A DNA stretch of 64,000 bases from Chitinophagales bacterium (lineage in GTDB: Bacteria; Bacteroidota; Bacteroidia; Chitinophagales; CAIOSU01). The translations under genes were made by a program, and so were the position numbers. The DNA lies in NCBI GenBank assembly GCA_026003335.1, contig BPHB01000002.1, positions 124,001-188,000 of the forward strand, written 5' to 3'. The notes under the pieces are model-generated. The model was not told the DNA's origin. It saw only the letters and a list, made by a program, of their open reading frames with translations, and did not search any database. Shown here in pieces: positions 37,426 through 42,986 of the stretch (its first letter is position 1; each line of letters begins with the position of its first letter).

Positions 37426-38891
37426 TATTCGTCCAAGGCTTGTAAGGTGGTTTGCAGAATTTCTTTATCGTCAAAAGGGAATTTTTTTCCCTTGATTTCC
37501 TGATACTTTTCATGGCCCTTGCCAGCCAACAGGATGATGTCTCCAGCCTGTGCCATAGCGCAAGCAGCCCGTATGGCTTCCTTGCGATCTACAATAGTTA
37601 TCACCTTCCGTCTACTGCCGGCATCCACACCTTTTAGCATTTGGGAGATGATAGATTCGGGGTCTTCATCTCTTGGATTATCCGAAGTGAGCACTACTCT
37701 ATTGCTAAGTTGGCTGGCGATGTTTGCCATAACCGGACGTTTATCTTTATCGCGGTTGCCTCCGCATCCTACCACTGTGATAAGCTGTTCATTTCCTGAG
37801 CGTATAGAATTAATTGTGGATAAAACATTTTTTAGTGCATCAGGAGTATGTGCATAATCCACAATGCCCACAACTTTTCTTTTTGGTGATATGAAATACT
37901 GAAACCGCCCATCGGCTGCCTGCAACTGACTCATAATTTTTAGTATTTGCATACGCTCGGCCCCAAGCAGCATGGCCGTAGCATAAACAGCCAACAAATT
38001 ATAGGCATTGAATTCCCCAACCAACCGGGTGTACACTTCGTGATCATCCACCTTCAACACCAGCCCACTCAAAGTATTTTCCAGAATCTTTAGCCTGAAG
38101 TCAGCCGGTCTTTTAAGGCTGTACGTATAAACTTTTGCCCGGGTATTCTGCACCATCACCCTTGCATTGCGGTCATCGGCATTTATTAATGCAAATGCCG
38201 ATGATGGGAGATTATCAAAGAGTTTCTTCTTGGCGAGGATGTAATTTTTAAATGTTTTATGATAATCCAGATGATCATGGGAAATATTGGTAAAAACAGC
38301 CCCGGTAAAATGCAAGCCACTGACCCGATGCTGATCAATGGCAATTGAGGAAGCCTCCATAAAGCAGTGCGTGCACTTCGCTCTGACCATCTTTGCAAGA
38401 AGCTCGTTAATCTGAACGGCATCAGGGGTTGTGTGCGTAGCGGGAATTACCTTACCATTAATTTCATTTTGTACGGTTGAAAGCATGCCTGTTTTGTGTC
38501 CCAGCTGTCTGAACAGATGGTATAGCAGGGTTACCGTTGTGGTTTTTCCATTGGTGCCGGTAACAGCAATCAGCTTGAGCCTGGATGACGGATTATCATA
38601 AAAGTTGCTGGACATAATTCCTAGTGCTTCGCCACTGTTTTTCACTTTCACATAGGTAACTTTATCAGCCAATAAGGAAGGCATCTGCTCAACGATAATG
38701 GCTATAGCCCCCTTCTGCACAGCCTGCTCAATAAAATGATGACCATCTGCCTGAGTGCCTTTCACAGCAACAAACACACTGCCTTTTTTTACCTGGCGGG
38801 AATCAAAGGTGAGGTGGCCAACGAGGATATCGGTTGGTCCCGCAATCTCTTCCAGGCGAACTTTATATAATATGTCTTTGAGTAGTTTCAT
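37425..38891 (-). CDS. murE: UDP-MurNAc-tripeptide synthetase MurE (meso-diaminopimelate adding)
   Basis: 488 residues. [17 protein letters not shown] (about 30-46), ATP loop [18 protein letters not shown] (about 110-127), [12 protein letters not shown], and [15 protein letters not shown]. The specificity motif [10 protein letters not shown] (about 408-417) has the DNPR sequence that in this family selects meso-diaminopimelate, so the cell wall is of the m-DAP type. ATG overlaps the ftsI TGA by four bases. Confidence 0.97.
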
Positions 38892-40984
38892 CCTAATTCC
38901 AGCATGATCTGCATTCCGGGATTGACCCTCGTGCCGTGGCGGATAGATTGTGATTTCACCTTGCCTACACCGGTGAAGTGCACTTTCATGCCCAGATTTT
39001 CCAATAAGTAAAGAGCATCCCTCAGGCCCATACCCCGCACATCAGGCACATAGCCCTCCTTAAGTTCATAAGGCCTCAAGTCTAACGAGTTATCTTTCTG
39101 TCGTACATAAACCCATTCATCATCGTGGCGGTAATTACAGGAAACACCAATAGCTTCGTACAGATTGCTGATATCAGCCCTGTATCCGGACTTGGCATGT
39201 GGAAGTTCATCAGCAATAAAGTAATTCCGCTGGTTCACCGGCTCATGCATCTCCAGGCATGTAGAAAACACCTTATCCGCAATTTCCCGGAATACAGGTC
39301 CCGCGACATGTCCACCGTAATACATGCCGTTTTTCGGCTCATTAATGACTACGATACAGGAGTAAATTGGATTTTGAGCGGGAAAGTATCCTACAAAAGA
39401 GGCTTGGTAAATCTCTGCATATCCCCGGTTTTTATCGGCAATTTTTGCTGTGCCGGTTTTTCCGGCAAAGGTGTAGTACCTGGATTGCAGGTGACTGGCT
39501 GTTCCATTGCTGACTACTCCCTCCAGCAATAGCTTCACTTTCCGGAGTGTTCGGTCAGAGCAGATTTTATCTTCAATCACCTCGGGTTCAAACTCTTTAA
39601 TGACTTTACCGCGCTGTGTAACTGCTGAAACCAGATAGGGTTTCATCATACGTCCATCATTGGCTATGGCATTATAAAGAGTGAGTATGCGCAGAGGAGT
39701 AATCATCATCTCATACCCTACAGACATCCAGGGCAAACTAACCCCGCTCCAGTCTTTATTAGTCGGATCTTTTATGAAAGAGTTGGGTTCACCTTCAATT
39801 TCTATTCCTACTTTTTCATGCAGATGAAGTTTGCGCAGATACTCAATGTATTTCTGAGGATGTTTGCCGTAGTATTTGTAAACAAGTTTGGATATACCCA
39901 CGTTGGATGATATTTCAAAGGCCCGTTTGACAGAAACATAGCGATAGTCGTGCTGTTCAGAATCATACATTTTTTTATCATGAAAACCGGTTACCCCTCT
40001 TTCCAGGTCCACAGAATCATCCAGGTCAATAAAACCGTCTTCCAGAAGAGCGATGAGGGCAGCCAGCTTTATTGTAGAACCCGGTTCGGTAGCTTCACCG
40101 ATGGCGTAATTATAATTCTCCCAGTATGAGCCATCCTGAATTTTGCCCAGATTGGCAATTGCCCTGATTTTTCCTGTGGCCACCTCCATAACTACAACCG
40201 AACCATGATCCGCATTATGTTTCTGAAGAGCTTTATACAGTGCATTTTCGGCCACATCCTGGAGGTTAATGTCAATTGTTGTGACAATATCTTTTCCGTT
40301 TTCAGGCATAATCTCATTTTCATCATTAACCGGTATCCATGTTCCACCGGCTATGCGTTGCATAAGGCGCTTCCCGCTCACACCGGCCAGATACTCATTA
40401 AATCTGCCCTCCAGCCCTACAGGCTTTATTCCTTCCCTCACATAGCCGATCGTACGATGTGCCAGAATTTGATAGGGTCTTGTACGCTTACTTTCCTGAA
40501 TGACAATCAAGCCACCTTTATAACGTCCCATGCGGAATAAAGGCCATTGTTTGATTTGCTGCAGTTCCGGATAGGTTATGTTTTTTTCAATGAGCAGATA
40601 GCGGTTGCCCATCTTGCGAGCATTTACCAGCATTTGCTTGTAATAGGTTGCCGGTTTGTCTTTTTTAAATTGAGCAATATGCCAGGCCAGAGAATCCACA
40701 TTGCTGTAAAATATATTATCAGTAAGCGCCTCTGCATTTAGGTCAGCACGTATTTCGAAAAAAGGCAATGAGGTTGCCAGCAACTGTCCGTCTTCAGTCA
40801 ATACATTGCCACGTTCGGCTTCAATGGGCAGATAGTCGGTGGTCAGGCTATCCGCAAGACTGATGAGGTATTTCCCTTCCACTTGTTGAATGTGTATGAC
40901 CTTAAAAAGAATAGCCGCTCCCATCAGGCAGAGGAAGAAAAAGGTGATGTAAATGCGCGCCAGTATGCTGCGTTTAATGCTCAT
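38888..40984 (-). CDS. ftsI: Septal transpeptidase FtsI (PBP3-type, with C-terminal PASTA domain)
   Basis: 698 residues. One N-terminal span (about 8-28, ARIYITFFFLCLMGAAILF), a dimerisation domain, then the transpeptidase domain. Catalytic EPGSTIKLAAL (SxxK, about 306), SSNVGISKL (SxN, about 362), and TFAGKTGTAKI (KTG, about 502). A PASTA domain occupies the last 65 residues (YVPDVRGMGLRDALYLLENL). The PASTA tail makes it resemble SpoVD/PBP2x more than E. coli FtsI, as is normal in Bacteroidota. It crosslinks septal peptidoglycan with FtsW. Overlaps the ftsL-like gene by 11 bases. Confidence 0.96.
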   Translation of the reverse strand: MSIKRSILARIYITFFFLCLMGAAILFKVIHIQQVEGKYLISLADSLTTDYLPIEAERGNVLTEDGQLLATSLPFFEIRADLNAEALTDNIFYSNVDSLAWHIAQFKKDKPATYYKQMLVNARKMGNRYLLIEKNITYPELQQIKQWPLFRMGRYKGGLIVIQESKRTRPYQILAHRTIGYVREGIKPVGLEGRFNEYLAGVSGKRLMQRIAGGTWIPVNDENEIMPENGKDIVTTIDINLQDVAENALYKALQKHNADHGSVVVMEVATGKIRAIANLGKIQDGSYWENYNYAIGEATEPGSTIKLAALIALLEDGFIDLDDSVDLERGVTGFHDKKMYDSEQHDYRYVSVKRAFEISSNVGISKLVYKYYGKHPQKYIEYLRKLHLHEKVGIEIEGEPNSFIKDPTNKDWSGVSLPWMSVGYEMMITPLRILTLYNAIANDGRMMKPYLVSAVTQRGKVIKEFEPEVIEDKICSDRTLRKVKLLLEGVVSNGTASHLQSRYYTFAGKTGTAKIADKNRGYAEIYQASFVGYFPAQNPIYSCIVVINEPKNGMYYGGHVAGPVFREIADKVFSTCLEMHEPVNQRNYFIADELPHAKSGYRADISNLYEAIGVSCNYRHDDEWVYVRQKDNSLDLRPYELKEGYVPDVRGMGLRDALYLLENLGMKVHFTGVGKVKSQSIRHGTRVNPGMQIMLELG

Positions 40985-41318
40985 CGTCTACGACAATTTT
41001 TTTTGGCGGATTTACCAGCTCCTTTAGTCCCAGAGGTTCCACAGCCCGGGCTACCTCTGTCTGCTTGCTTTTAAACATCAGTTCAGCTTTAGCCGAAATG
41101 TAGTTCCATCGTATCTCCTTCACCTCGGCTTTCATGCGGTCAATATTACGAATGGTGTTTTCCACAGAATGAGTATTGCTGATGTAGAGCATGGCAAGGA
41201 AAACCAGAAACAGGAAATAAGGCAGATTGGAAGCAATATTTTCCAATGAAAGCATGGCATTAAAATCCAGCCTTAAAAATTTTTTGCGCAGGACGTTAAG
41301 TTTTTCCCGAATGTGCAT
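40974..41318 (-). CDS. ftsL: FtsL-like cell division protein
   Basis: 114 residues: a basic cytoplasmic start (REKLNVLRKKFLRLDF), one span (about 34-50, PYFLFLVFLAMLYISNT), then a short periplasmic coiled coil (NTIRNIDRMKAEVKEIRWNY). Sequence similarity to FtsL is generally undetectable; size, topology and position between rsmH and ftsI identify it. Overlaps ftsI by 11 bases; 12 bases after rsmH. Confidence 0.88.
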   Translation of the reverse strand: MHIREKLNVLRKKFLRLDFNAMLSLENIASNLPYFLFLVFLAMLYISNTHSVENTIRNIDRMKAEVKEIRWNYISAKAELMFKSKQTEVARAVEPLGLKELVNPPKKIVVDDEH

Positions 41319-41330
41319 AACCTGTCTTTC

Positions 41331-42284
41331 TTAGCCTTCTAATTTTTCTATACCTGCCGGTATTTGCGCAGAGGTGTCCTGAACTGCCGCAATCTTTTCA
41401 GCCACTCTCAGTTTTGCACTTCGGGCGCGTTTGTTGGCTGCTATTTCCTGCCGTGAAGGTGTAATAGGTTTTCTTGTGAGCATGCGCAAAGGCACCTGTG
41501 TGTTGCCGTATGCGTCTTTATATACTTCTCCCTGTATATTGCCGGTTTTCATAAAGTTTTTCACCATGCGATCTTCCAGAGAGTGGTAGGTGATTATGGC
41601 CAGTCTGCCTTTTTCTCTGAGCACTTCAACGGATTGGTGCAGCAGCTCATGCAGGGCACCCAGTTCATCGTTCACCGCGATGCGCAATGCCTGAAAGAGT
41701 TTTGATAGGTATTTGCTTTCTTTTCCTCTGATAGCCGGGCGAATGATTTCTCTCAGCTGACCGCTGGTTTCAATTCTGCAACCAGCGCGTGCAGCCACAA
41801 TGAGGCGGGCAAGCGTACGCGCGTTTTTAATCTCTCCATATTGCGAAAACAATGTGACTAATTCCTTCTCATGATAGGTATTAAGCAAGTCAGCTGCAGT
41901 GTATTTGAGCGAACGATCCATACGCATATCTAAGGGAGCATCGGTACGATAGGTAAATCCGCGTTCAGGCGTATCCAGGTGGTGGGAAGAAACGCCCAGA
42001 TCGGCCAGAATACCGTCAACAGGCAGCAGATTATACAGCCGCAGATAGCGCTTAAGATGCCTGAAGTTCTGATTTATGAATATCATGTTTGTGTCCTTTT
42101 GCTTTACCTCTGCCGCAACATCCGGGTCTGCGTCAAAGGCTACCAGTTTTCCTGTTTTTATTCTTTTCAATATCTCCCGGCTATGACCTCCGCCTCCATA
42201 AGTTGCATCGACATAAATGCCGTCTTCTTTAATGTTGAGCATCTCCACACTTTCTGAAAGCAGCACGGGGTCATGACGGATCAT
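41331..42284 (-). CDS. rsmH: 16S rRNA m4C1402 methyltransferase RsmH (MraW)
   Basis: 317 residues. SAM-binding VDATYGGGGHSREIL (about 26-40; Gly-rich loop), DGILADLGVSSHHLD (about 89-103), RGFTYRTDAPLDMRMD, and AIITYHSLEDRMVKNFM (about 232-248) are diagnostic. It methylates N4 of C1402 in 16S rRNA. ATG start, overlapping mraZ by 14 bases. Confidence 0.97.
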   Translation of the reverse strand: MIRHDPVLLSESVEMLNIKEDGIYVDATYGGGGHSREILKRIKTGKLVAFDADPDVAAEVKQKDTNMIFINQNFRHLKRYLRLYNLLPVDGILADLGVSSHHLDTPERGFTYRTDAPLDMRMDRSLKYTAADLLNTYHEKELVTLFSQYGEIKNARTLARLIVAARAGCRIETSGQLREIIRPAIRGKESKYLSKLFQALRIAVNDELGALHELLHQSVEVLREKGRLAIITYHSLEDRMVKNFMKTGNIQGEVYKDAYGNTQVPLRMLTRKPITPSRQEIAANKRARSAKLRVAEKIAAVQDTSAQIPAGIEKLEG

Positions 42285-42756: not shown

Positions 42757-42765
42757 GCTAATTTA
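42757..42765 (-). promoter_or_regulatory. Candidate -7 box of the dcw (mraZ) promoter
   Basis: On the minus strand TAAATTAGC matches the TANNTTnGC pattern seen before several genes in this window. It lies 18 bases before the mraZ ATG, with the three operator repeats directly upstream, where a bound repressor would cover the -33 region. Confidence 0.5.
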
Positions 42766-42772
42766 AAAATAC

Positions 42773-42799
42773 TTACCACAATTTACCACTTTTTACCAC
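42773..42799 (-). promoter_or_regulatory. MraZ operator: three GTGGTAA direct repeats
   Basis: Plus-strand TTACCAC occurs at 42773-42779, 42783-42789 and 42793-42799, exactly 10 bases apart. Read in the direction of mraZ this is GTGGTAA three times, separated by three A/T-rich bases. MraZ boxes in other bacteria are three or four short G-rich direct repeats with one-helical-turn spacing in front of mraZ (E. coli TGGGN repeats; GTGG-containing repeats in Mollicutes). Location and period fit autoregulation of the whole cluster. Confidence 0.78.
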
Positions 42800-42986
42800 A
42801 AATTGTTTCTGATTTTTTTTTGCACAGTTTTTCTACACCTTTTTTGAGGTTTACAGGTCAGCAGTGCCGGGGGACCTTTGTGGCGATGGTGTTTAAAGGC
42901 CTGAAAGTTATGCCTGCCTAAAAGAAAGATTGCATGAGCAGCCCATTGCACTGGTTTATAAAAATGAGGAGGGAAAAAACTTCCGC

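Follow-up and report, generated by a model that had tools for sequence, protein, structure and literature searches.

The mraZ gene of this Chitinophagales bacterium is preceded by three copies of GTGGTAA, which very probably form the MraZ operator of the dcw promoter. The assignment, already proposed in the initial annotation of the 64,000-nucleotide stretch of DNA that was analysed (the window), is strongly supported by four properties of the array: its conservation, its 10-base period, its strand and its absence where mraZ is missing. Its placement sets the class of the window apart within the Bacteroidota, in that the array lies over the predicted -33 position of the promoter and not behind a -10 box.

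A single triple of probable MraZ boxes at the head of the dcw cluster

Read on the minus strand, which encodes mraZ, the DNA 5' of the gene is TTT-GTGGTAA-AAA-GTGGTAA-ATT-GTGGTAA-GTATTTT-TAAATTAGC. The initial annotation had described the same repeats on the plus strand as three TTACCAC heptamers at exact 10-base steps located 35 to 61 bases before mraZ, and both statements agree with the coordinates (Table 1), the ATG lying 35 bases beyond the end of the last repeat. The distance from that repeat to the -7-like box, given there as 8 bases, measured 7.

Table 1 Features of the mraZ promoter region and of the genes downstream of it (positions in the window)
Feature	Position	Strand	Basis or remark
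MraZ box unit 1, GTGGTAA	42793..42799	-	sequence; kept in relatives
MraZ box unit 2, GTGGTAA	42783..42789	-	sequence; GTGG at -36 to -33 of inferred start
MraZ box unit 3, GTGGTAA	42773..42779	-	sequence
-7 box TAAATTAG (within TAAATTAGC at 42765-42757)	42758..42765	-	5/6 fixed letters of TAnnTTTG
Inferred transcription start, 15-nt leader	42753	-	T of -7 box set at -12
Weak DnaA-box-like 9-mer TTTTGCACA	42818..42826	+	sequence; not counted as present
mraZ, 155 aa	42271..42738	-	TIGR00242, PF02381
rsmH (mraW)	41331..42284	-	profile matches; 14-nt overlap with mraZ
FtsL-like gene (FtsL_2)	40974..41318	-	domain match
ftsI-like transpeptidase with PASTA domain	38888..40984	-	profile matches

The single heptamer is common enough, whereas the triple is rare. 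Ten heptamers are present in the window, three of which make up the array, compared with 5.57 expected, and 5 of 100 shuffles contained at least ten. Across the 3.9 Mb genome the pattern GTGGTAA-N3-GTGGTAA-N3-GTGGTAA was matched once and the reversed control pattern not at all. A unit matrix was derived from 72 genomes, none of them belonging to the family of the window. With this matrix the array scored 41.2; the best other site within the window scored 7.8 and 20 mononucleotide shuffles of the window gave scores of no more than 11.9. Only the fuller unit is discriminating, because the loosened triple GTGK-N6-GTGK-N6-GTGK was no commoner in the genome than its reversed control (five sites each). 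By the full triple genome-wide, and by the matrix within the window, the genome has one clear MraZ site, and it is at mraZ itself.

The gene behind the array encodes a protein that matched the MraZ model TIGR00242 with 120 bits (E 7.4e-35), above the curated cut-off of 98.35. In an alignment of 15 MraZ sequences, the window protein included, residues D13, K15, G16 and R17 and residues D88 and R92 were invariant; the loops that hold them are presumably the DNA-binding loops of MraZ. Solved MraZ chains (structures known here by entry name alone) were matched with an E value of 1.6e-20, the DNKGR and DSADR sequences of the window protein aligning with DNKNR and DSANR. The gene order mraZ, rsmH, FtsL_2 and ftsI-like identifies this locus as the head of the dcw cluster, and the array sits at the promoter of this mraZ-led cluster. 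The 14-nt overlap of mraZ and rsmH (42271-42284) suggests coupled translation, and the PASTA domain of the ftsI-like protein is C-terminal.

Conservation of the array and its dependence on mraZ

The initial annotation had proposed alignment of the regions upstream of mraZ in related genomes as a check of its reading. Of 60 relatives, 57 had a match to mraZ, as did 147 of 158 genomes drawn from the phylum (the genome of the window being counted in both sets). We read 157 upstream regions, 50 from the 57 mraZ-bearing relatives and the rest from the 147 phylum genomes, of which 110 were taken (3 already included), 3 more were already included and 34 were left out. The few regions that had no ATG, GTG or TTG near the expected start were retained in the counts. 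When an array was defined as three GTGG units at spacing 10 that retain 11 or all of the 12 letters, the 10-base-period repeats proved to be conserved upstream of mraZ in 102 of the 157 genomes: 40 of 54 in the order, 26 of 27 in the class and 36 of 76 in other classes. Hence 14, 1 and 40 genomes, respectively, were negative at this threshold, some of them because their units read GTGT or ATGG. Alignments gave a consensus unit of about WWW-GTGG-[GT]-A-A in which TG was near-invariant, GTGT and ATGG being variants of some genomes.

Both the spacing and the strand are specific. At spacings of 6-9 and 11-16 the GTGG triple was found in at most one genome each among the 157, and on the reverse strand it was found in none of them. 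A second collection of 80 named loci, some of which are genomes of the 157 set, gave 76 loci that reached 11 of 12 letters and none at six other spacings. Three of these named loci, L183, L188 and L227, are titled Verrucomicrobia or Alphaproteobacteria and yet carry mraZ and an array of the type found in the class of the window, so these records are probably mistitled.

All 14 genomes of the two sets that had no mraZ match were searched for rsmH, which was found in 10 of them. In none of the 10 was an array of 11 of 12 letters present within 300 nt upstream of rsmH, the best scores being 6-10 of 12. As 8 of the 10 belong to one family, these genomes represent about three independent losses of mraZ, and given so few losses and the scores of only 9 or 10 of some mraZ-bearing genomes, the test lends support but does not discriminate sharply. 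The family in question (f42; genomes G084, G114, G140, G155, G159, G167, G190 and G198) lacked a match to the mraZ model in 8 of 8 genomes sampled and has retained rsmH, apparently a family-wide loss of MraZ.

Two other accounts of the array can be weighed against these data. An A/T-rich region in which a single heptamer is nothing unusual would be expected if the repeats were functionless products of chance or low complexity, but we consider this explanation practically eliminated: strand, period and position are conserved in 25 of the 28 sampled families of the class and order (at least one genome with at least 11 of 12 letters), and dinucleotide shuffles produced a GTGG triple at spacing 10 in no more than one genome. 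Alternatively, the array could bind another regulator that is merely linked with mraZ, as it is from the sequence that we infer binding by MraZ. Such a regulator seems very improbable, since rsmH of the 10 mraZ-less genomes is without an upstream array after some three independent losses, and since the core and period of the array match the known E. coli and Mollicute sites.

Placement of the array on the promoter

A sequence that agrees with five of the six fixed letters of the sigma-A -7 consensus TAnnTTTG lies downstream of the array, 14 nt after the first G of the last GTGG. The T of the Bacteroidota -7 box is placed at -12 in PMC6847099 and PMC9723704, and from the start predicted in this way (Table 1) the array would span about -46 to -20. 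The -33 element described as TTTG (PMC2483708, PMC6847099) is absent from this promoter, where the GTGG of unit 2 takes its place.

The same arrangement is found in much of the class. In regions having an array score above 12 (78 of 81 in the class and order, 69 of 76 in other classes) we looked for TAnnTTTG with at least five of six letters. With offsets counted from the first base of the last GTGG, it was present at 14-16 nt in 48 of the 78 class and order regions, the window included, and missing in 30, whereas 500 shuffles gave a mean of 4.0 and a maximum of 10. When the interval was widened to 8-29 nt downstream, 51 of 78 class and order regions were positive (22.5 when shuffled) compared with 5 of 69 in other classes (7.2 when shuffled). 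The reverse was true of TTGAC within 60 nt upstream of the array, which occurred in 8 of 78 class and order regions (shuffled 4.0) and in 49 of 69 regions from other classes (shuffled 3.8). In many alignments of the other classes the array also follows immediately on a sequence like TACATT or TATTTT, as would be expected of a -10 box and as described for E. coli and B. cenocepacia in PMC7761207.

Given that TAnnTTTG lies at a fixed distance after the array in these 48 of 78 regions, the array covers the predicted -33 position there. In the window itself the array is upstream of the -7-like box and the E. coli geometry, an array downstream of the -10 box, is not seen. One operator has thus been kept while its place on the promoter differs inside one phylum, and this difference makes the dependence of the sign of MraZ regulation on placement testable.

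A DnaA-box-like element beside the array in relatives

A second sequence, the 13-mer AAGTTWTYMACAA, accompanies the array in many relatives. The regions used were 78 genome regions plus 78 of the 80 named loci, and removal of near-copies left 115 of these 156, drawn from the class, the order and the named loci and with the window among them. In 89 of the 115 regions the 13-mer scored at least 8 in the 60 nt upstream of the array, compared with 2.1 upon shuffling, although part of this excess arises by construction because the regions scored had also served to fit the matrix. By genome the count was 57 of 78, and by family 21 of 27, in the class and order. The 89 matches are divided between two orientations, 50 and 39. 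The upstream GTGGAAAAC element was also considered as a fourth MraZ unit and this was disfavoured, as 50 of the 89 are in the orientation that lacks GTGG.

The 9-mer TTWTNMACA, which was not fitted, was found within 60 nt in 52 of 78 class and order regions (shuffled 2.2) and in 6 of 69 regions of other classes (shuffled 1.8); in a control interval further upstream of the array, at 120-180 nt, it was already found in 14 of 78. In the reverse orientation the element is phased with the array: 13 of 15 families had no gap to the first GTGG outside 2-4, 13-15 or 24-26 nt, the exceptions being family f9 at 31 and family f25 at 10. The binomial probability of such phasing is about 3e-5 with the choice of phase allowed for; the calculation treats the families as independent, an assumption that does not hold in full. 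Forward-orientation elements were unphased, the best phase window taking in 5 of 10 families.

The consensus of the DnaA box is TTATNCACA. The 13-mer resembles it, although the TTATYAACA of the element departs from that consensus. Upstream of dnaA in 35 genomes we found 19 matches to the 13-mer in 27.5 kb (14 of the 35 genomes) compared with 7.2 upon shuffling; the dnaA coding sequences held 14 matches in 48.6 kb. In genome G061 the 300 nt before dnaA hold four matches; the genome of the window has none upstream of its dnaA. This modest enrichment is supportive of the DnaA-box reading, not decisive.

The window has no good 13-mer within 60 nt upstream of its array, whereas all five other genomes read from its family do. 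Its best matrix score was only 2.1-2.2, and for this reason the 9-mer TTTTGCACA was not counted as the element; it may be what is left of the relatives' second element. Elsewhere in the same genome, seven TTWTNCACA sites fall within about 2.1 kb (C1:1025480-1027616), two of them being TTATCCACA sequences 96 bases apart. This cluster, half a megabase from dnaA (C1:1558195), was picked by eye among the first 100 of 164 TTWTCCACA matches and is a candidate replication origin.

Discussion

The MraZ protein is described as an octameric toroid (PMC7761207), and units one helical turn apart would present the same face of the DNA to neighbouring subunits of such a ring-shaped oligomer. MraZ bound to the array would keep sigma region 4 off the promoter and thereby block RNA polymerase, so that MraZ would repress its own cluster, mraZ-rsmH-ftsL-ftsI. 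Exclusion of sigma region 4 is the most likely route, given an array that extends from about -46 to -20 and places unit 2 on -33. The occlusion argument is weakened by the F. johnsoniae data, since in that bacterium a -33 motif stands out far less clearly than the -7 box (PMC6847099). We think that MraZ probably acts as a repressor at this array, a sign taken by analogy from other phyla: MraZ represses Pmra in E. coli (PMC7761207) and deletion of mraZ in M. genitalium increased expression of the other dcw genes (PMC8475190).

Two further readings bear on how the promoter is controlled. MraZ could instead be an activator, the array at -33 replacing contacts of sigma region 4 at a promoter that lacks a good -33 box. 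In much of the class the array is indeed upstream of the -7 box and not downstream of a -10 box, with unit 2 of the window at the -33 position, and the report that filamentation upon MraZ overexpression in M. gallisepticum was accompanied by raised FtsZ (PMC8475190) would fit activation. Against this stand the E. coli and M. genitalium results given above, and we regard activation as the less likely sign, though still a live alternative. The remaining reading is compatible with the MraZ operator, to which it would add a second input: composite control in the class by the MraZ array and a DnaA-bound AAGTTWTYMACAA, tying dcw expression to replication initiation, the site of the window having decayed. 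This is a tentative possibility. The frequency of the 13-mer beside the array, the excess of the unfitted 9-mer in the class and order over other classes, the phasing of the reverse orientation and the four matches upstream of dnaA in G061 speak for it. The low score in the window, the unphased forward orientation, the fitting of the matrix on the regions scored, the 9-mers of the control stretch, the modest dnaA-upstream excess with none in the organism's own genome and the departure from the DnaA consensus speak against it, and another factor or an UP element could account for the 13-mer. Slightly more doubtful still is the fuller proposal of a class-wide two-input dcw switch, in which the array would have moved from behind the -10 box to -33, adjoining a DnaA-bound AAGTTWTYMACAA that in one orientation keeps a fixed helical face, the window representing a lineage with a decaying DnaA input. 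If that were true, one promoter would read both the level of MraZ and the state of replication initiation, and replication would be wired directly to division in the Bacteroidota. The DnaA-box-like companion found in relatives is a more novel lead than the operator itself and, if bound by DnaA, it would provide a testable link between the control of replication and that of division.

The operator, which we continue to read as a probable site of MraZ repression, is of a known kind. Of the MraZ-box reading in the initial annotation the operator has stood, whereas the claim that its unit is distinct from the E. coli box and defines a Bacteroidota MraZ box has not; the -33 placement and the second element had gone unremarked there. 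A Bacteroidota-specific box is rejected because the E. coli K-12 site, which reads GTGGGAAATT GTGGGGCAAA GTGGGAATAA, scores 12 of 12 by the same GTGG-triple measure. Like the window, E. coli Pmra has a GTGG triple of 10-base period upstream of mraZ on the same strand. The units of the two differ mainly at the fifth base, G in E. coli and T in the window, and in E. coli TTGACA is seen upstream of the array. The two also differ in placement: the E. coli MraZ site is downstream of the -10 box according to PMC7761207, whereas the array of the window lies over the -33 position. Among the published papers listed in literature searches, none dealt with the site of the window and none gave MraZ binding or expression data for its class. 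Comparative data now allow the unit, period and placement of the operator to be stated for the Bacteroidota.

Other described MraZ sites share the same plan. The Mollicute box is given as (AAAGTGKN3)3 (PMC5282649) and, like the array of the window, consists of three period-10 units with a GTGK core. Unit 2 of the window, AAAGTGG, agrees with this consensus, whereas TTT stands before unit 1 and ATT before unit 3 in place of AAA, and the three bases after GTGK, which are free in the Mollicute consensus, are TAA in the window. PmraBc of B. cenocepacia has four 7-nt repeats with 3-nt spacers in the MraZ-bound fragment (PMC7761207). These are 7 + 3 periodic repeats as in the window but, as described there, they number four and lie downstream of the -10 box, over the transcription start. 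The GTG core common to B. subtilis, E. coli and mycoplasmas has already been published (PMC7761207), and the array of the window has this core at the same 10-base period as the E. coli and Mollicute sites.
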